This document shows, piece after piece, positions 1 through 4,312 of a DNA stretch of 29,948 nucleotides. The first letter of the stretch is position 1. Each line of letters begins with the position of its first letter. Below the pieces are notes generated by a model. That model ran no database searches. It had not been told where the DNA came from and saw nothing but the letters and a program-made list of their open reading frames with translations. This DNA comes from a virus, in IMG/VR virus record IMGVR_UViG_3300022752_000278, positions 1 to 29,948 of that record. One strand, given 5' to 3'. A program made the translations under genes and the position numbers.

Positions 1-36
1 AGTTTACAAACTGAAACTCAAGCAAAGTATCAAAAA

Positions 37-204
37 ATGACTGACACACTCAAAGAGTATCATTTCACTGATGAACAAATTGACTTTCTGATGCGAATTG
101 TGCGAAACAATGCACAGTTTGAAGATGGCGAAGATCGTGAGTTTATGGAAGAACTTGCGAATCAAATTGAAGATCAAATTGTAAACCACCCCACTAACAA
201 CTGA
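37..204 (+). CDS. Small acidic protein, copy 1 of a duplicated gene
   Basis: Encodes a 55-residue protein starting MTDTLKEYHF. I do not recognise a characterised family. It is strongly acidic, with a central cluster FEDGEDREF (residues about 28-36), and is probably mostly helical. A second copy lies at 967-1134 and differs in only two residues (position 2 Thr/Ile, position 55 Asn/Val). The reading frame is open to the left edge of the window, so a longer upstream start cannot be excluded. The ATG at 37 is chosen because it is the exact counterpart of the start in copy 2. No Shine-Dalgarno sequence is visible. The stop overlaps the next start (TGATG), so the two genes are probably translationally coupled. 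Coding status is supported by the pattern of differences between copies: 10 of 12 changed codons are synonymous. Confidence 0.75.
   Translation: MTDTLKEYHFTDEQIDFLMRIVRNNAQFEDGEDREFMEELANQIEDQIVNHPTNN
37..204 (+). repeat. Gene-sized direct repeat, unit 1 (unit 2 at 967-1134)
   Basis: The 168-base coding sequence is repeated at 967-1134 with 13 base differences (about 92% identity). Flanking sequence is not obviously shared, so the repeat is confined to the gene. Confidence 0.85.
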
Positions 205-416
205 TGACTCTCACTTCCCAACAACTCAACCAACTCATTATACTCTACGCTGAGCGATGTGTAGATGACATGGACACCAAATGTCTCATGCAGTTTGTGT
301 ATGATGCGATTGTAGACAACATGGCAAACATGAGTGAGCATGAAGTTTTAGATCAACTCTCCTGCGTTTATGGTGATGAAACAGTACAGATAATGGTGGA
401 GAGTGTGACGGTTTAG
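204..416 (+). CDS. Small acidic hypothetical phage protein
   Basis: A 70-residue protein beginning MTLTSQQLNQLI. Its start overlaps the stop of the preceding gene by one base (TGATG), which indicates translational coupling. The pattern of hydrophobic residues every 3-4 positions with many D/E (VDDMDTKCLMQFVYDAIVD) suggests two or three amphipathic helices. I see no catalytic motif or membrane segment. It resembles short helical hypothetical proteins common in T4-like cyanophages, but that is recollection rather than a search result. It is followed by a non-coding gap holding a promoter and a structured RNA. Function unknown. Confidence 0.75.
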   Translation: MTLTSQQLNQLIILYAERCVDDMDTKCLMQFVYDAIVDNMANMSEHEVLDQLSCVYGDETVQIMVESVTV

Positions 417-420
417 TAAG

Positions 421-460
421 TGGCACAAGGGGGGGTTACGTTACTGCTACCTCCGTGCCA
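421..460 (+). promoter_or_regulatory. Inverted repeat TGGCAC / GTGCCA flanking a promoter
   Basis: TGGCAC at 421-426 and GTGCCA at 455-460 form a 6-bp inverted repeat across 40 bases. It encloses the -35 region, and its last two bases (CA) begin the -10 box CATACT. The same arrangement recurs at 1147-1185 and 1411-1449. It could be an operator, or a hairpin that terminates upstream transcription. Confidence 0.5.
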
Positions 461-464
461 TACT
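436..464 (+). promoter_or_regulatory. Putative sigma70-type promoter for the 597-1134 operon
   Basis: TTACGT (436-441), a 17-base spacer, then CATACT (459-464). An overlapping -10 alternative is TACTAT at 461-466. The expected start point is near 471, the first base of the structured leader RNA. Two other promoters in the window have the same layout (TTGCAN, 17 bases, CATACT at 1161 and 1425). Confidence 0.5.
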
Positions 465-470
465 ATAAAA

Positions 471-571
471 GTTGAGAGGGAAGAAGCAAAGGCGGTTCCC
501 AACCACCCCGACAACTAACTAGAATCGGGGAAATGTGGTTGAGGTAAAAGCAATTACCGTGCCCTCTCAAC
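471..571 (+). ncRNA. Structured leader RNA, possible cis-regulatory switch
   Basis: A 101-base nested structure can be read directly. P1 is GTTGAGAGGG (471-480) with CCCTCTCAAC (562-571), 10 bp and perfect. P2 is CAACCAC (500-506) with GTGGTTG (535-541). P3 is CCCGA (507-511) with TCGGG (525-529), closing a 13-base loop. P4 is GGTAA (543-547) with TTACC (554-558), with a 6-base loop. The predicted transcription start falls at the 5' base of P1. The 3' strand of P1 (CCCTC, 562-566) can alternatively pair with the Shine-Dalgarno GAGGG (586-590) of the gene at 597. GGGAA (478-482) can alternatively pair with TTCCC (496-500), which would disrupt P1. I cannot match it to a known riboswitch; wcaG-type and other cyanophage leader RNAs should be tested. 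Confidence 0.6.
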
Positions 572-596
572 ACACATTCGTTCCTGAGGGATTCAA

Positions 597-713
597 ATGA
601 CACCCAACTGGCAACACAACTCTGGTAAGCACAAGCGAACCAAGGGCATGTGTAAAGGAAAAATCAAATCCAGAAAACAAGCACTCAAAGCACTCAAACT
701 CAAACTGAAATGA
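597..713 (+). CDS. Very basic 38-residue protein
   Basis: Encodes 38 residues starting MTPNWQHNSGKHKR and ending in a Leu/Lys heptad-like tail (ALKALKLKLK). It contains 11 Lys, 2 Arg and no Asp or Glu, for a net charge of about +13 without histidines. This composition fits a nucleic-acid-binding or ribosome-associated peptide (inference). Upstream is a good Shine-Dalgarno (GAGGG, 586-590) at 6 bases from the ATG, preceded by the structured leader RNA. The stop overlaps the next start as ATGA (710-713). A basic peptide directly behind a structured leader could bind that RNA and regulate its own operon; nothing in the sequence proves this. Confidence 0.6.
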   Translation: MTPNWQHNSGKHKRTKGMCKGKIKSRKQALKALKLKLK

Positions 714-970
714 CCAACACCACAATCACTCTCAATCAATTTCACAATCTTTTGGCAGATGCTTATGCTGTCTGTGTGAATGATACTCTATACTTTGTAG
801 GATATGATACGGACGACAATCCTTACATTGCCGACAATGATGGGCAGGATTATGTTGATCTCTCCACCGTAGATGGTGACATTGAAGTGGATGATTATGC
901 TGTGTCATTTTGGGTACAAGGAGAACCCATTCGTATGATTTTTCTTAACATCGCACCCCTGAACAAATGA
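710..970 (+). CDS. Highly acidic 86-residue protein
   Basis: Starts at the ATGA overlap with the basic 38-residue gene, and its own stop overlaps the next start in the same way (967-970). The protein has 13 Asp and 2 Glu against one Arg and one Lys, net about -13. The acidic residues sit in a central tract (residues about 33-63, with patterns such as DTDDN and EVDDY). Aromatic and beta-branched residues between them suggest a small beta-rich fold. I recognise no family. Its charge and size resemble DNA-mimic or anti-defence proteins, or an acidic partner for the preceding basic peptide; both ideas are inference. Confidence 0.7.
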   Translation: MTNTTITLNQFHNLLADAYAVCVNDTLYFVGYDTDDNPYIADNDGQDYVDLSTVDGDIEVDDYAVSFWVQGEPIRMIFLNIAPLNK

Positions 971-1134
971 TTGACACACTCAAAGAGTATCATTTCACCG
1001 ACGAACAAATCGACTTCCTGATGCGAATTGTGCGAAACAATGCACAGTTTGAGGATGGTGAAGATCGTGAGTTTATGGAAGAACTTGCCAACCAAATTGA
1101 AGACCAAATTGTAAACCACCCCACCAACGTGTGA
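967..1134 (+). CDS. Small acidic protein, copy 2 of a duplicated gene
   Basis: Encodes 55 residues (MIDTLKEYHF...), identical to the product of 37-204 except at residues 2 and 55. It is the last gene of the coupled unit 597-1134, with an ATGA overlap to the preceding stop. Eight of the ten synonymous differences from copy 1 make this copy richer in G or C. Net charge is about -10 and the fold is predicted helical by eye. No functional motif is seen. Its maintenance in two separate transcription units with near-invariant protein sequence implies a dosage or timing requirement, or recent gene conversion. Confidence 0.8.
   Translation: MIDTLKEYHFTDEQIDFLMRIVRNNAQFEDGEDREFMEELANQIEDQIVNHPTNV
967..1134 (+). 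repeat. Gene-sized direct repeat, unit 2 (unit 1 at 37-204)
   Basis: Partner of 37-204; 13 differences over 168 bases, nearly all at third codon positions. Confidence 0.85.
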
Positions 1135-1140
1135 CAGTTG

Positions 1141-1164
1141 GCAAGGTGGCACACACCCCCTTGC
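1141..1164 (+). terminator. GC hairpin after the 597-1134 operon
   Basis: GCAAGG (1141-1146) pairs with CCTTGC (1159-1164), with two further G:C pairs inside after one mismatch. No U-tract follows, so it is a weak or factor-assisted terminator at best. It overlaps the next promoter's -35 box. Confidence 0.4.
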
Positions 1165-1189
1165 AGACCCCCCGATTCCGTGTCATACT
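1161..1189 (+). promoter_or_regulatory. Putative promoter for the gene at 1216
   Basis: TTGCAG (1161-1166), 17 bases, CATACT (1184-1189). It is enclosed by the imperfect inverted repeat TGGCAC (1147-1152) / GTGTCA (1180-1185), in which one G:C pair has become G:U. The predicted start is near 1196, leaving a leader of about 20 bases with the Shine-Dalgarno GAGGA. Confidence 0.5.
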
Positions 1190-1215
1190 ACGTTTGTTCC
1201 TGAGGAATCCAACTC

Positions 1216-1398
1216 ATGGCAATGATCTGCGACAATCACCACTTCTACAACCGAATGAGTGATCACGATGCTATTATGTCATCGTGCGCCACCTGGGTTG
1301 ATCACTACAATTTCATGGCATCTCTCTCTTGGTTGAGTGAGACTGATCGCCAACAGTTTGAATACGAAATGACCGAATACCTTTGCTATGATGTGTGA
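1216..1398 (+). CDS. Small hypothetical protein rich in His and aromatic residues
   Basis: A 60-residue protein beginning MAMICDNHHFYNRM. The ATG is preceded by a GAGGA Shine-Dalgarno in a leader segment (GTTCCTGAGG) shared with the gene at 597. It contains clustered His, Cys, Tyr and Trp residues (CDNHHFYN, WVDHYNF, EYLCYDV). I cannot assign a metal site or a family. It is an independent unit with its own promoter (1161-1189). Codon use matches its neighbours. Function unknown. Confidence 0.7.
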   Translation: MAMICDNHHFYNRMSDHDAIMSSCATWVDHYNFMASLSWLSETDRQQFEYEMTEYLCYDV

Positions 1399-1410
1399 CA
1401 CCTGATGAAC

Positions 1411-1449
1411 TGGCACACAGGGGGTTGCACCCCCACCCAACCCGTGCCA
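1411..1449 (+). promoter_or_regulatory. Inverted repeat TGGCAC / GTGCCA with inner hairpin
   Basis: TGGCAC (1411-1416) pairs with GTGCCA (1444-1449), and inside it GGGTTG (1422-1427) pairs with CAACCC (1438-1443). An alternative inner pairing is GGGGG (1420-1424) with CCCCC (1430-1434). It lies directly over the promoter at 1425-1453, like the element at 421-460. Confidence 0.5.
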
Positions 1450-1453
1450 TACT
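1425..1453 (+). promoter_or_regulatory. Putative promoter for the KTSC-like gene
   Basis: TTGCAC (1425-1430), 17 bases, CATACT (1448-1453). The -35 box sits inside the hairpin at 1411-1449. The predicted start is near 1460, so the transcript would begin with the hairpin at 1463-1484. Confidence 0.5.
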
Positions 1454-1462
1454 GATCACATC

Positions 1463-1484
1463 AGCGGGGGTGAAGCATCCCGCT
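1463..1484 (+). other. 5' leader hairpin of the KTSC-like gene
   Basis: AGCGGG (1463-1468) and CCCGCT (1479-1484) form a perfect 6-bp stem with a 10-base loop, within a few bases of the expected transcript start. No U-run follows, so it looks like an mRNA 5' stabilising hairpin rather than a terminator. The remaining leader is pyrimidine-rich with no Shine-Dalgarno. Confidence 0.45.
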
Positions 1485-1521
1485 CAAAACACTTCACTCA
1501 ACCCTTTACCTTTTTCTGATT

Positions 1522-1746
1522 ATGTTCAAGTTCCAATCCAACGCCATCGAAAATATCTCCGATATTCAAGATGGTCAAGTGACTATCACCTTCAACGGTG
1601 GTCGTGACTATACCTACAGCGTGGCAGATCCTGCCAACTTCGTGGAAGATCTCAATCTGGTGATTGAAAACGAAGACTCCGTAGGTAAGTTCATCAACCT
1701 CGCCATTCGTGGCGATCAACTCACCCAGGCGCTTGCCACTGTGTGA
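1522..1746 (+). CDS. KTSC-domain-like small protein
   Basis: A 74-residue protein. Residues about 5-66 follow the KTSC domain pattern (Pfam family named after the lysyl-tRNA synthetase C terminus): an N-terminal SNAI strand, then VTITFNGGRDYTYSV, a helix beginning NFVEDL, and the closing SVGKFINLAIR. KTSC proteins are small beta-rich domains often found alone in phages; their molecular role is not established. The start is the only in-frame ATG near the promoter and has no clear Shine-Dalgarno. A strong intrinsic terminator follows at 1753-1778. The family call is by motif reading, not by a profile search. Confidence 0.8.
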   Translation: MFKFQSNAIENISDIQDGQVTITFNGGRDYTYSVADPANFVEDLNLVIENEDSVGKFINLAIRGDQLTQALATV

Positions 1747-1752
1747 TAACCT

Positions 1753-1778
1753 GGGGGGGGCAATCGCTCCCCCTTTTT
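1753..1778 (+). terminator. Intrinsic terminator after the KTSC-like gene
   Basis: A run of eight G (1753-1760), an 8-base loop, five C (1769-1773) and five T (1774-1778). This is the clearest rho-independent terminator in the left region. Confidence 0.8.
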
Positions 1779-1781
1779 AGT

Positions 1782-1898
1782 ATGTTCCGCCCCCTGATCG
1801 CTCTGATACTGCTCTGTCTGTTCTGGGAACCGATCCGCCCCATCAGGAGTGTGACAGCACAGGCACTGTACACCGCAGGCGACCTGATCGCCCGCTGA
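1782..1898 (+). CDS. Very small single-pass membrane protein
   Basis: A 38-residue ORF, MFRPLIALILLCLFW..., with one hydrophobic segment at residues about 4-15 and a polar tail ending GDLIAR. It begins only four bases after the U-tract of the preceding terminator, and no Shine-Dalgarno is visible. It must therefore be expressed by terminator read-through or from a promoter overlapping its start (TAGTAT at 1778-1783 is a weak candidate). GC-rich third positions match the neighbouring array. Its end abuts the next -10 box at 1904. Small membrane peptides like this are common in cyanophage early regions, but the function is unknown. Confidence 0.55.
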   Translation: MFRPLIALILLCLFWEPIRPIRSVTAQALYTAGDLIAR

Positions 1899-1903
1899 CC
1901 CTC

Positions 1904-1920
1904 TATACTGATTCCAGTTC
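1904..1920 (+). promoter_or_regulatory. -10 box TATACT with CAGTTC initiation motif
   Basis: TATACT (1904-1909) is followed after exactly five bases by CAGTTC (1915-1920). The same spacing occurs at 2398, 2681 and 3376. No good -35 is seen. It drives the gene at 1933. Confidence 0.5.
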
Positions 1921-1932
1921 GCAAGCAACCCG

Positions 1933-2106
1933 ATGACTTTCACTTCCTGGAGTGCCGCCCCCAAAGGCACCGGAATCGATCACGCCGAGTTCTTCACCAG
2001 TGAGGAACACGCCGTGGACGTTGCCTTCGACTGGAGCATCGAACTCGGTGGTGCTCCCGTGGTGATCTACCGCAACGAGCAGGAGTGGATGGAGGTCACT
2101 GCCTAA
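1933..2106 (+). CDS. Small hypothetical protein
   Basis: A 57-residue protein starting MTFTSWSAAPKGTG and ending EQEWMEVTA. It has a helix-like stretch (EEHAVDVAFDWSIELGG) followed by a short strand VVIYR, compatible with a compact alpha/beta fold. No known motif. Its leader is the A/C-rich, Shine-Dalgarno-free type shared by the array, and its promoter is at 1904. Codon use is GC-rich like its neighbours. Confidence 0.75.
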   Translation: MTFTSWSAAPKGTGIDHAEFFTSEEHAVDVAFDWSIELGGAPVVIYRNEQEWMEVTA

Positions 2107-2118
2107 AGTGGCACACTG

Positions 2119-2138
2119 GGGGGTCACATCCGACCCCC
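2119..2138 (+). terminator. GC hairpin of cassette unit 1
   Basis: GGGGGTC (2119-2125) pairs perfectly with GACCCCC (2132-2138), loop ACATCC. No U-tract follows. A -35-like GTCACA (2123-2128) lies at the loop. Confidence 0.5.
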
Positions 2139-2152
2139 TGACCCTGTAGACT
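2123..2152 (+). promoter_or_regulatory. Putative promoter for the gene at 2177
   Basis: GTCACA (2123-2128), 18 bases, TAGACT (2147-2152). The -35 overlaps the hairpin loop, as in the other units of the array. Leader A/C-rich, no Shine-Dalgarno. Confidence 0.45.
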
Positions 2153-2176
2153 AAACACATCAAACAAACCGAGACC

Positions 2177-2392
2177 ATGAGCAAGCGTTTCCCCTGGATT
2201 GATAACCTCAGCACTGCTCAGCAGCTGGGGGTGTTAAGTGTCCTGATTGTTGTTGGTGTTGGGATCGTTGCCCTGAAAGCCTGGCTCCTGGTGCTGGTGC
2301 TGGGGTGGATTGGAATCACCGCCCTAGGATTTTGGAAGGCGGTTGTGACAGTTGTCCTGCTGGACCTGCTGCTGGCATCGGTCCGCCGCTGA
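2177..2392 (+). CDS. Small two-segment membrane protein
   Basis: A 71-residue protein. After a short polar N terminus (MSKRFPWIDNLSTAQQ) come two hydrophobic segments, at residues about 17-34 and 36-66, separated by a Lys-Ala-Trp turn. It ends in Arg-Arg. The pattern is an inner-membrane hairpin protein. I do not recognise a family; it could be a holin-like or host-envelope-modifying protein, but there is no lysis gene nearby and the charge pattern alone does not establish this. It has its own promoter in the repeated cassette (2113-2170). Confidence 0.75.
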   Translation: MSKRFPWIDNLSTAQQLGVLSVLIVVGVGIVALKAWLLVLVLGWIGITALGFWKAVVTVVLLDLLLASVRR

Positions 2393-2397
2393 CCCCT

Positions 2398-2414
2398 TAT
2401 ACTGATCTCAGTTC
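2398..2414 (+). promoter_or_regulatory. -10 box TATACT with CAGTTC initiation motif
   Basis: TATACT (2398-2403), five bases, CAGTTC (2409-2414), with the upstream context CTGACCC as at 1904. No clear -35. It serves the gene at 2427. Confidence 0.5.
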
Positions 2415-2426
2415 AACCAACACCCC

Positions 2427-2666
2427 ATGATCATTCAACAGATCGGCAGCAACCAGACTGAGGTTCAACTGGCAGACGGAACCTGCGTTCTGTTCTCCTA
2501 CGTGACCCCCGTTGCCGCCTTGGTGCCTGGTAAGGGTTGGATTCGCACCGCTCACAAGTGGAGCGCCACCACAACCAAGCACATCAATGCCTGGATAAGG
2601 AAGAACTGCGGCGGCACCGTTCAGACTGTGCCACAATGGGAAGTGGACCAACTGGTGGCGTTCTGA
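2427..2666 (+). CDS. Conserved small phage protein with a KWSATTTKHIN motif
   Basis: A 79-residue protein. The N-terminal half has strands around a short hairpin (TEVQLADGTCVLFSYVTPVAAL), followed by KWSATTTKHINAWI (residues about 44-57) and a C-terminal VPQWEVDQLV. The segment TPVAA...KWS.TT.KHIN.W is one I associate with short cyanophage and phage proteins of unknown function; no activity is known to me. The ATG at 2427 follows an A/C-rich leader with no Shine-Dalgarno. A small GGGG/CCCC hairpin follows the stop. Confidence 0.75.
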   Translation: MIIQQIGSNQTEVQLADGTCVLFSYVTPVAALVPGKGWIRTAHKWSATTTKHINAWIRKNCGGTVQTVPQWEVDQLVAF

Positions 2667-2679
2667 GGGGCGCCACCCC
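2667..2679 (+). terminator. Short GGGG/CCCC hairpin
   Basis: GGGG (2667-2670) and CCCC (2676-2679) with loop CGCCA, directly abutting the next -10 box. A weak terminator or promoter-linked hairpin. Confidence 0.35.
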
Positions 2680-2680
2680 T

Positions 2681-2697
2681 TACAATATATTCAGTTC
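2681..2697 (+). promoter_or_regulatory. -10 box TACAAT with CAGTTC initiation motif
   Basis: TACAAT (2681-2686), five bases, CAGTTC (2692-2697). It drives the gene at 2712. Confidence 0.5.
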
Positions 2698-2711
2698 AAC
2701 CAACCACACCG

Positions 2712-2888
2712 ATGACCTACGCTCAGATCACCGCCTCCGAACTTTCCGCCTCTGAGGCACGGTCTGCCATCTTTGACCTGGCCGACGACTTCTCCTGGGA
2801 GACCGTTGCCCGTGAGATGATCTGCCAGATGAGTGGCGATCAGGCACGGGAGTTCCTGGAGGACTTCATTGCCGACTATGCCGCCTGA
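2712..2888 (+). CDS. Small acidic helical protein
   Basis: A 58-residue protein (MTYAQITASELSASEA...), almost certainly all helical and acidic, ending FIADYAA. No motif recognised. It is an independent transcription unit with the promoter at 2681 and an A/C-rich leader with no Shine-Dalgarno. The stop is followed within about 15 bases by the second copy of the terminator-promoter cassette. Confidence 0.75.
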   Translation: MTYAQITASELSASEARSAIFDLADDFSWETVAREMICQMSGDQAREFLEDFIADYAA

Positions 2889-2902
2889 GGCACTGCCACA
2901 CT

Positions 2903-2922
2903 GGGGGTCATACCCGACCCCC
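2903..2922 (+). terminator. GC hairpin of cassette unit 2
   Basis: GGGGGTC (2903-2909) pairs with GACCCCC (2916-2922). The loop ATACCC differs from unit 1, while the stem is conserved exactly. Confidence 0.5.
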
Positions 2923-2936
2923 TGACCCTCTATACT
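2907..2936 (+). promoter_or_regulatory. Putative promoter for the gene at 2960
   Basis: -35-like GTCATA (2907-2912) in the hairpin, 18 bases, TATACT (2931-2936). Confidence 0.5.
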
Positions 2937-2959
2937 AAACACACCAAACAAACCAAATC

Positions 2960-3142
2960 ATGAGAGTCTACGCCGTCATCGCTGGTACCGACTATGAAAG
3001 GGAGGACTTCAACACTCTCCGCCTGTTCGATTGCAAATCCACCGCCCAGGCATACGCTGAGCATCTGGAGGAGCAACTGGGAACCGACTACGTGCTGATT
3101 GAGGATCGGGAGATCTGCATGGAATCGGCGCTTGCCGCCTGA
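2960..3142 (+). CDS. Small hypothetical alpha/beta protein
   Basis: A 60-residue protein with an N-terminal strand (MRVYAVIAGTDY), a Leu-rich second strand (LRLFDC), a helix (TAQAYAEHLEEQL) and a third strand (YVLIEDREI). This order is typical of very small ferredoxin-like or beta-alpha-beta phage proteins. I assign no function. The leader has no Shine-Dalgarno and is nearly identical to that of the gene at 2177. Confidence 0.75.
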   Translation: MRVYAVIAGTDYEREDFNTLRLFDCKSTAQAYAEHLEEQLGTDYVLIEDREICMESALAA

Positions 3143-3149
3143 TCCGTGC

Positions 3150-3155
3150 TACAAT
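3150..3155 (+). promoter_or_regulatory. -10 box TACAAT before the gene at 3182
   Basis: TACAAT follows CCGTGC, resembling the CCGTGCCATACT boxes upstream. Transcript start is expected near 3162. No clear -35. Confidence 0.4.
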
Positions 3156-3181
3156 TCACAAGCAACCAAGCAACCCAACCG

Positions 3182-3340
3182 ATGACCCTCTACAACATCG
3201 TCCGCTCCTATGCCCCCCACCTTGAGAAGCGGGATCAGATTGTCCAACGTGGTCTGACCCTGGAGCAGGCACAAGCACACTGCCGCAACCCCAAAACCCG
3301 CAAGGAGGGCGAATGGTTTGACGGATACACTGAGGCATAA
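3182..3340 (+). CDS. Small conserved phage protein ending WFDGYTEA
   Basis: A 52-residue protein, MTLYNIVRSY..., with GLTLEQAQAHCRNPKTRKEG followed by WFDGY. The combination of LEQAQAHC with a downstream WFDGY resembles a family of short cyanophage proteins; its function is unknown to me. An in-frame GTG at 3146 would give 64 residues, but the -10 box at 3150 lies inside that extension, so the ATG at 3182 is preferred. The next unit begins with a strong hairpin six bases after the stop. Confidence 0.75.
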   Translation: MTLYNIVRSYAPHLEKRDQIVQRGLTLEQAQAHCRNPKTRKEGEWFDGYTEA

Positions 3341-3346
3341 TCCAAT

Positions 3347-3369
3347 CGGGGGTTGCAAACCAACCCCCG
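3347..3369 (+). terminator. Strong 9-bp GC hairpin overlapping a promoter
   Basis: CGGGGGTTG (3347-3355) pairs perfectly with CAACCCCCG (3361-3369) around loop CAAAC. There is no U-tract. The -35-like TTGCAA at 3353-3358 spans the stem-loop junction. Confidence 0.55.
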
Positions 3370-3392
3370 ACCGACTACAATACACCCAGTTC
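3353..3392 (+). promoter_or_regulatory. Putative promoter for the winged-helix gene
   Basis: TTGCAA (3353-3358), 17 bases, TACAAT (3376-3381), five bases, CAGTTC (3387-3392). Confidence 0.6.
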
Positions 3393-3406
3393 ACCACTCC
3401 CGAACG

Positions 3407-3667
3407 ATGCTCACCTCCATCATCCGCACCGCGATCCGCACCCACCTGATCAACGACGGCCCGATGACCTGCAGCGACCTGGTTCGCGCCATGGGCATGG
3501 ACCCCCGCCGCCACAAAGGCACCATCCACGCCGTGATGGTTGACCTGGAGAAGGCAGGCATTCTGGATGCCACCCGCAGCGACAGCGGCAAGCGCGACCT
3601 CTGGTTCATCGTGCCCACCGCGATCCGCAAGCGTGATCGCCTTGCCGCCGCCATGGCAGGCATCTGA
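3407..3667 (+). CDS. Putative winged-helix DNA-binding protein
   Basis: An 86-residue protein. Residues about 5-70 read as a winged helix-turn-helix: helix 1 (IIRTAIRTHLINDG), helix 2 (CSDLVRAMGM), a basic recognition-helix candidate (PRRHKGTIHAVMVDLEKAGIL), then a wing (DATRSDSGKRDLWFIV). A basic tail RKRDR follows. This suggests a small transcriptional regulator acting on phage or host promoters, and several promoters with shared motifs lie nearby as possible targets (inference). The longer in-frame extension upstream of 3407 crosses the promoter and is rejected. Alternative: a non-regulatory winged-helix adaptor. Confidence 0.7.
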   Translation: MLTSIIRTAIRTHLINDGPMTCSDLVRAMGMDPRRHKGTIHAVMVDLEKAGILDATRSDSGKRDLWFIVPTAIRKRDRLAAAMAGI

Positions 3668-3674
3668 CCCCTGC

Positions 3675-3700
3675 GGGGGCACTTGACTGGTGCCCCCTTT
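3675..3700 (+). terminator. Terminator hairpin with a -35 box as its loop
   Basis: GGGGGCAC (3675-3682) pairs with GTGCCCCC (3690-3697), followed by TTT. The 7-base loop is TTGACTG, which contains the -35 hexamer TTGACT of the next promoter. Confidence 0.7.
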
Positions 3701-3712
3701 ATCGACTACAAT
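3683..3712 (+). promoter_or_regulatory. Promoter for the gene at 3733
   Basis: TTGACT (3683-3688), 18 bases, TACAAT (3707-3712). The best -35/-10 match in the GC-rich array. Confidence 0.65.
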
Positions 3713-3732
3713 TCCAAAGCAAACCGCACCCG

Positions 3733-3918
3733 ATGACCACCATCAACGGCGCCGAGTTCACGATCATCCGCCTGCCCGTTGCTCATGGCACCCGCGCCAA
3801 CCGCTGGGCGAACCAGATCAAGGGCGGCAGCACCCGCGTTCGCACTCACGGCGGAGCAGCAGGCAGCAGCGCCACCCGCATGAGCACCGCGAACAGCGCC
3901 CTGGGCGACGTGCAGTGA
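3733..3918 (+). CDS. Small basic hypothetical protein
   Basis: A 61-residue protein, MTTINGAEFTIIRL..., with a strand-rich start and a basic, Gly/Ala/Ser-rich remainder (RANRWANQIKGGSTRVRT). Its composition suggests nucleic-acid binding or a disordered tail; no domain is recognised. It is the last gene of the GC-rich array, preceded by the promoter at 3683 and followed by two hairpins (3926-3946 and 3969-3992). Codon use is strongly GC-rich, in contrast with the genes that follow. Confidence 0.65.
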   Translation: MTTINGAEFTIIRLPVAHGTRANRWANQIKGGSTRVRTHGGAAGSSATRMSTANSALGDVQ

Positions 3919-3925
3919 CAGTTCG

Positions 3926-3946
3926 GGGGGTGGCACACTCACCCCC
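3926..3946 (+). terminator. GC hairpin after the gene at 3733
   Basis: GGGGGTG (3926-3932) pairs with CACCCCC (3940-3946), 7-base loop. It carries the TGGCACAC segment found at other hairpins of the array. Confidence 0.55.
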
Positions 3947-3968
3947 TATTCGTTCGTGATCGACAGTT

Positions 3969-3992
3969 AACGCCCCCGGCGGCGAGGGCGTT
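3969..3992 (+). terminator. Terminator closing the GC-rich array
   Basis: AACGCCC (3969-3975) pairs with GGGCGTT (3986-3992), 10-base loop, followed by TGAAAAA. It marks the composition boundary. From here to 4113 I see no gene, only AT-rich sequence and an inverted repeat. Confidence 0.55.
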
Positions 3993-4093
3993 TGAAAAAC
4001 CATAGGTACCCCTAACCTACAAAGTGTTACGGAAGGCATAAAGATAAAACACTCAAATACAAAAATTTTTTCGAATATATACAAAATGAAATT

Positions 4094-4110
4094 AAGTTTT
4101 ATAAAAACTT
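4094..4110 (+). promoter_or_regulatory. Palindrome AAGTTTT-ATA-AAAACTT, possible operator
   Basis: A perfect 7-bp inverted repeat with a 3-base centre, ending three bases before the ATG of the AbrB-like gene. It could be an autoregulatory operator or a start-site hairpin. AT-rich palindromes also arise by chance. Confidence 0.35.
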
Positions 4111-4113
4111 CAA

Positions 4114-4287
4114 ATGAAAAAAAATTCCGGCGAAATTTTTGAGAATATACAGGTCGATCCAATCAGTGGAGACTATTATGTAATTATTCCAGAGAGTATT
4201 GTGAATGAACTCTCATGGTATGAAGATACTGAAATTGGTTTTAAGATTGAAGGAGATGAGGTAATCCTCACAGAAAATATAAATTGA
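4114..4287 (+). CDS. Putative AbrB-like swapped-hairpin protein
   Basis: A 57-residue protein (MKKNSGEIFENIQV...). The segment VDPISGDYYVIIPESIVNEL (about 14-33) followed by a Trp, then an acidic stretch and GDEVILTE, matches the layout of SpoVT/AbrB-type DNA-binding beta-hairpins: strand, I-P-x-x-I-x-x-x-L, and a G-x-x-I-x-L strand. Such proteins are usually dimeric regulators. No Shine-Dalgarno is visible. Its TGA overlaps the -35 of a strong promoter at 4284. The call rests on pattern; an uncharacterised phage protein with a similar fold is equally possible. Confidence 0.65.
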   Translation: MKKNSGEIFENIQVDPISGDYYVIIPESIVNELSWYEDTEIGFKIEGDEVILTENIN

Positions 4288-4312
4288 CAAATCATATATA
4301 ATATCGTATGAT
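4284..4312 (+). promoter_or_regulatory. Strong consensus sigma70 promoter
   Basis: TTGACA (4284-4289), exactly 17 bases, TATGAT (4307-4312). It is the closest match to host consensus in the window and sits 22 bases before the glycosyltransferase-like ATG. It overlaps the stop codon of the AbrB-like gene. Confidence 0.8.

Follow-up and report, generated by a model that had tools for sequence, protein, structure and literature searches.

A structured 5' leader RNA precedes unrelated small genes in cyanophage-like viral contigs

Introduction

Structured leader RNAs are normally studied as switches that are tied to particular genes. Near the start of a 29,948-base viral sequence (IMG/VR record IMGVR_UViG_3300022752_000278; this whole stretch of DNA is hereafter the window), a folded RNA of about 100 nt lies between a promoter-like element and the ribosome site of a small gene, which raises the question of whether this RNA is a switch of the gene that it heads. 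An earlier note had read it in this way, as a translational switch for which the product of the gene itself, a charged protein of 38 residues, could be the ligand. However, a near-identical RNA heads five other, unrelated viral genes, and thus looks portable rather than a one-gene switch.

The window encodes the gp25 baseplate wedge protein, with very large ORFs adjoining the gp25 gene, and an AdoMet decarboxylase, and the nearest cultured relatives of its 38-residue gene are those of cyanophages such as B23 and S-CRM01; we read the window as a fragment of a T4-like cyanophage. Positions 1–4000 are a series of small genes, many of them separated by stem-loop-plus-promoter cassettes. This region also contains a direct duplication of 167 nt with 93% identity (32–198 versus 962–1128) that carries a small acidic gene, with the leader region between the two copies. 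No tRNA or tmRNA was found in the window. The gene behind the leader (597–713, plus strand) encodes a basic protein (phrog_3309) with a weak, sub-threshold similarity to DUF6496, which is kept across cyanophages in differing gene contexts.

Results

Anatomy and stability of the leader

The leader (471–571, plus strand) spans 101 nt in the window and 97–101 nt among its homologues, with six distinct copies altogether. Two helical features described in the earlier note are indeed present in the sequence, namely, a perfect 10-bp closing stem (P1; 471–480 paired with 562–571) and a two-part stem (500–504 with 537–541 and 506–511 with 525–530). The outer 4 bp of P1 are retained in five of the six copies, two of them via G-U pairs, and are lost in the contig L032. 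Next to the 5' strand of P1 lies a nearly invariant, purine-rich bulge, AAGAAGCAAAG (481–491), that is unpaired in the favoured fold and becomes part of a 4-bp hairpin in a cloverleaf alternative. The two-part stem comprises P3a (498–504 with 537–543) and P3b (CCCCG, 506–510, with CGGGG, 526–530), and its apical loop (511–525) is the sole site of length differences among the copies. The core of P3a, together with P3b and the inner 6 bp of P1, is invariant in all six. A candidate helix, P1b (492–496 with 556–560), and a small hairpin, GGTAA...TTACC (543–558), exclude each other. The earlier note had included the hairpin in the structure; this element is not conserved, given that L106 loses one of its pairs and retains the P1b pairing instead.

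In the interior of the leader, the cloverleaf competes with a rod that carries P1b. Competing folds are similar in energy, and two of them reach -38.0 kcal/mol in the window. P1b can pair in every copy, with one pair changing from G-U to A-U, and is within the minimum-energy fold of L106, the most divergent copy; in the other copies, the cloverleaf or an extended-P3 fold is lower in energy. The P3a pair 499–542 is C.A in four copies, C-G in L032, and U-A in L106. The pairing signals for P1b and for the P3a extension are suggestive, and shuffled sequences reach them too. A tRNA-like cloverleaf was rejected because one arm is broken in most copies.

Of the compensatory changes by which the earlier note proposed to judge the stems, a single instance was found (one pair, C-G versus U-A, changed on both sides), a level matched by shuffles; such changes are nearly absent because the copies are too alike, not because many pairs are broken, with 95–97% of the pairs retained across the copies. 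The six copies show no significant covariation, and the variable sites in all six are not significantly depleted from helices.

The fold of positions 471–602 yields z = -3.3 relative to shuffled sequence, and the leader alone (471–571) yields z = -4.6, with none of 500 shuffles equally stable; across all six copies, the z-scores range from -2.8 to -4.6. Positions 1–4300 contain one perfect 10-bp stem that closes 80–130 nt, and such a stem was found in 8% of shuffles. The structure itself is real.

Distribution and conservation of the leader

A protein-anchored scan, together with scans of 2.9 million viral contigs for DNA patterns, recovered the leader in seven more contigs, which belong to five lineages beyond the window (L033/L029, L034, L007/L006, L032, and L106). 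Each record searched contains one copy. Neither the 50,697 phage records nor the 72,556 plasmids examined by BLAST contained a match to the leader, and a covariance model detected no leader in 386 cyanobacterial genomes, in a search run without a positive control. A host origin was rejected on the same lack of copies, together with a scan of genome contigs that gave chance matches only; putative distant copies in L010 and Sf-CH1b were discarded as well, being weak model matches that fall within coding genes. The earlier note could not match the RNA to a known class, and this suspicion was borne out: Rfam gave no match at the gathering score and only chance-level matches up to an E-value of 10. 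The leader is thus a structured RNA that is uncatalogued in Rfam.

Among five copies compared, the leader core is 89–99% identical, in contrast to 45–90% for the 60 nt upstream and 48–70% for the 40 nt downstream; other DNA that the relatives share with the window's contig is mostly 64–79% identical, with small genes reaching about 84%. Conservation of the bulges and loops almost equals that of the stems. Such high identity means strong selection, recent exchange, or both. That recent exchange does occur is suggested by promoter stem-loops that are identical among several phages.

Independence of the leader from the downstream genes

The six copies of the leader precede six non-homologous small genes. 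These encode the 38-residue basic protein, a 52-aa protein of phrog_12489, an orphan 58-aa protein, an 84-aa protein (phrog_27005), a protein starting with MTYQELLQ (phrog_17540/1057), and a protein starting with MTSDLSIKV (phrog_35733). Conversely, the 38-residue gene has leaderless homologues in S-CRM01, B23, and several contigs, and L032 contains both the 38-residue gene without the leader and the leader elsewhere in the same contig. The MTYQELLQ gene comes both ways, with the leader in L034 and without it in L012, with the promoter end and the ribosome-site sequence alike in the two. Because the leader heads five other, unrelated genes and homologues of the 38-residue gene lack it, the suggestion that the 38-residue protein is the ligand appears very unlikely from these comparisons, and autoregulation by this protein was rejected.

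Promoter cassettes and the position of the leader

Immediately upstream of the leader in the window is a PeSL-like cassette (421–464, plus strand), in which a stem-loop, TGGCAC...GTGCCA (421–460; -17.4 kcal/mol), overlaps a putative promoter with the -10-like hexamer CATACT (459–464). This hexamer is weak by consensus and absent from the promoter-scan listing. The transcription start predicted from it, at about 471, agrees with the earlier placement of the start at the first base of the closing stem. Of the five other copies, four have the same spacing between the hexamer and the leader, so that the leader begins about 6 nt past the -10-like hexamer in five of the six. Five of the six copies lie directly behind a stem-loop promoter cassette of the TGGCACA...TGCCATACT type, and in five the stem-loop that overlaps the -10-like site has a predicted energy of -17 to -22 kcal/mol. 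The leader of L032 follows a different type of upstream sequence; a closely related sequence lies ahead of the 38-residue gene in the same contig. Between the end of P1 and the start codon lie 23–25 nt in all six copies, that of L032 with its unrelated flanks included, and the orientation relative to the gene is the same throughout.

The cassettes also occur on their own. Dozens of TGGCACA...CCATACT cassettes without a leader are located ahead of small genes in the window and related contigs, and an identical stem-loop, TGGCACAAGGGGTCTTGTGTTCTCATGAGATCCCTG, is found in L007, L034, and L106, with the leader, and in L008, without it, followed by different genes. Within positions 1–4000 of the window, cassettes of this form are located at 421–464, 1147–1190, 1411–1454, and 2109–2155, among others.

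Downstream of P1, the window has an ordinary 25-nt 5'UTR end (572–596, plus strand) with a GAGG ribosome site (586–589), and the TTYGTTCCTGAGG element that it contains also precedes leaderless genes. The sequence ACRTTYGTTCCTGAGG is a 5'UTR end common to several start codons (574–596, 1190–1212), and its TTCC-TGA-GGAA could fold over the ribosome site as a tiny hairpin. We also observed another, shorter type of leader, GTGGTTGAG...CTCCCAC, whose loop varies, in L006 (523–650) and on the reverse strand of L029 near 1553; this leader, too, lies directly behind TGGCACA...CCATACT cassettes and might be a further modular hairpin.

PeSL cassettes of T4-like phages were reportedly described by Arbiol et al. 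in 2010 and Comeau et al. in 2014. In PMC4503421, PeSLs (promoter-early stem-loops) are short promoter and stem-loop cassettes between T4-like early genes, and the cassettes analysed here resemble those described there in that they separate small early genes and are common to phages with differing flanks. Judged from sequence alone, the cassette that hosts the leader combines a promoter with a stem-loop and recurs, in the same form, next to different genes. Unlike PeSLs, however, it is followed by an extra folded leader of about 100 nt between the promoter and the ribosome site, which was not found in the PeSL descriptions there. The density of cassettes in the window also appears much higher than that given there for S-PM2.

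The ribosome site

The switch proposed in the earlier note depends on the 3' strand of P1, CCCTC, masking the Shine-Dalgarno sequence GAGGG once P1 opens. This pairing exists at full length only in the window, where its predicted probability is about 0, and was rejected: the complement to CCCTC reads GAGG in two relatives and GAGA in L034, and L032 and L106 have none. Pairing of GGGAA with TTCCC, the other proposed contact, is possible in all copies and, apart from this invariance, nothing supports it. For the four copies that have a TGAG site, the predicted accessibility of the ribosome site is the same with and without the leader. With the GAGG complement missing in three of the six copies and no U tract on the sense strand, there is no conserved riboswitch expression platform. 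What survives of the translational-switch reading is a structured and probably cis-acting leader that extends from the predicted transcript start; the ribosome-site switch does not.

Two further readings of the leader were discarded. It is not a leader peptide: on inspection, the copies differ by frame-shifting indels in the middle of the open frame TTG AGA GGG AAG ..., and no start signal is conserved. Nor is it an intrinsic attenuator, the sole terminator-like match within the leader being on the minus strand.

Discussion

The presence of the leader before unrelated genes, the homologues of the 38-residue gene without a leader, and the one gene found both ways indicate a transferable module rather than a switch operated by the gene's own product. 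The reading that we tentatively prefer, at somewhat less than even chances, is that T4-like cyanophages have a structured 5' leader RNA which is transferable, independent of the gene, and acts in cis on any message it heads. The leader would span the transcript from about +1 to about +100, with the fixed 23–25 nt remaining ahead of the start codon, and would either accompany the promoter stem-loop cassettes found between small early genes or move into them. At the extreme 5' end of the transcript, the blunt 10-bp stem might protect the message from 5'-end-dependent decay; in L032, which lacks the outer P1 pairs and a comparable promoter, such protection would not apply. P1 might further stop upstream sequence from invading the ribosome site and so leave an unpaired landing zone for the ribosome. 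Given that the bulges and loops vary hardly more than the stems, a specific partner, such as a protein, RNA polymerase, or the ribosome, may touch the near-invariant bulges. Against this reading, the high identity could partly reflect recent exchange, and significant covariation was not found.

Portability would also fit a leader that senses a ligand or a protein on behalf of whichever early gene follows, similarly to the glutamine-sensing leaders before short ORFs. The near-invariant bulges and junctions and the competition between equally stable folds in the window favour this possibility, and there are precedents: cyanophages have manA, wcaG, and glnA leaders, and Downstream-peptide RNAs head short ORFs of unknown function (PMC2864571, PMC9964418). 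Like the RNA described here, these are structured 5' leaders from T4-like cyanophages or cyanobacteria, and the short unknown ORFs behind Downstream-peptide RNAs are another shared feature; the difference is that our leader has no Rfam match, no common downstream function, and a distribution limited to a few viral contigs. The inconsistent functions of the downstream genes, the missing terminator-like U tract, the unconserved masking, and the single copy per record all weigh against sensing, which we therefore hold to be unlikely. The irrelevance of the downstream gene and the fixed bulge sequence would also fit a put-like RNA that would load onto RNA polymerase after an early promoter and override pauses and terminators. 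The putL RNA of HK022, about 70 nt long, is also located just past an early promoter and works without a dedicated protein (PMC9378689), and any gene may follow such an RNA; the predicted position of the leader from about +1 in five of the six copies matches this arrangement. The likeness is one of position, and the fold differs, with one enclosing stem in 97–101 nt versus two side-by-side stem-loops in about 70 nt, which makes a put-like role improbable.

An RNA that stays while the downstream genes turn over could also be a stand-alone small RNA made from the early promoter, with the gene behind it incidental, and the single copy per record, which in the window and two relatives occupies one and the same variable region of early genes, agrees with this. 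However, the constant distance to the start codon, even in the copy with unrelated flanks, would be hard to explain, and no terminator was found behind the leader in the window, so we give this option a similarly small chance. Finally, the inverted repeats might only mimic an RNA stem and actually be the termini of a small, MITE-like mobile DNA element. The perfect 10-bp repeat, the presence and absence ahead of the same gene, and a 9-bp direct repeat, ACATTTGTT, flanking the L007 copy all point in this direction, but the other aligned copies lack matching direct repeats, each record has one copy, and length varies only in a loop, with the inner stems unchanged. Because orientation and the distance to the start codon hardly vary, a mobile element is the least likely of these alternatives, and we consider it very improbable.

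A bolder version of the preferred reading, that of a transferable cis-acting leader, would make it a new RNA family that serves as a plug-in expression module, moved between cassettes and modifying RNA polymerase or the ribosome for any early gene; this seems rather doubtful at present. Be that as it may, a leader whose sequence stays almost unaltered in front of differing genes points to a general tuning of early messages by the phage. It further suggests that regulatory RNAs can be among the cargo of the promoter cassettes by which T4-like genomes are shuffled. For a group of cyanophages in which hardly any early gene has a known function, the leader provides a well-defined RNA that can be tested.
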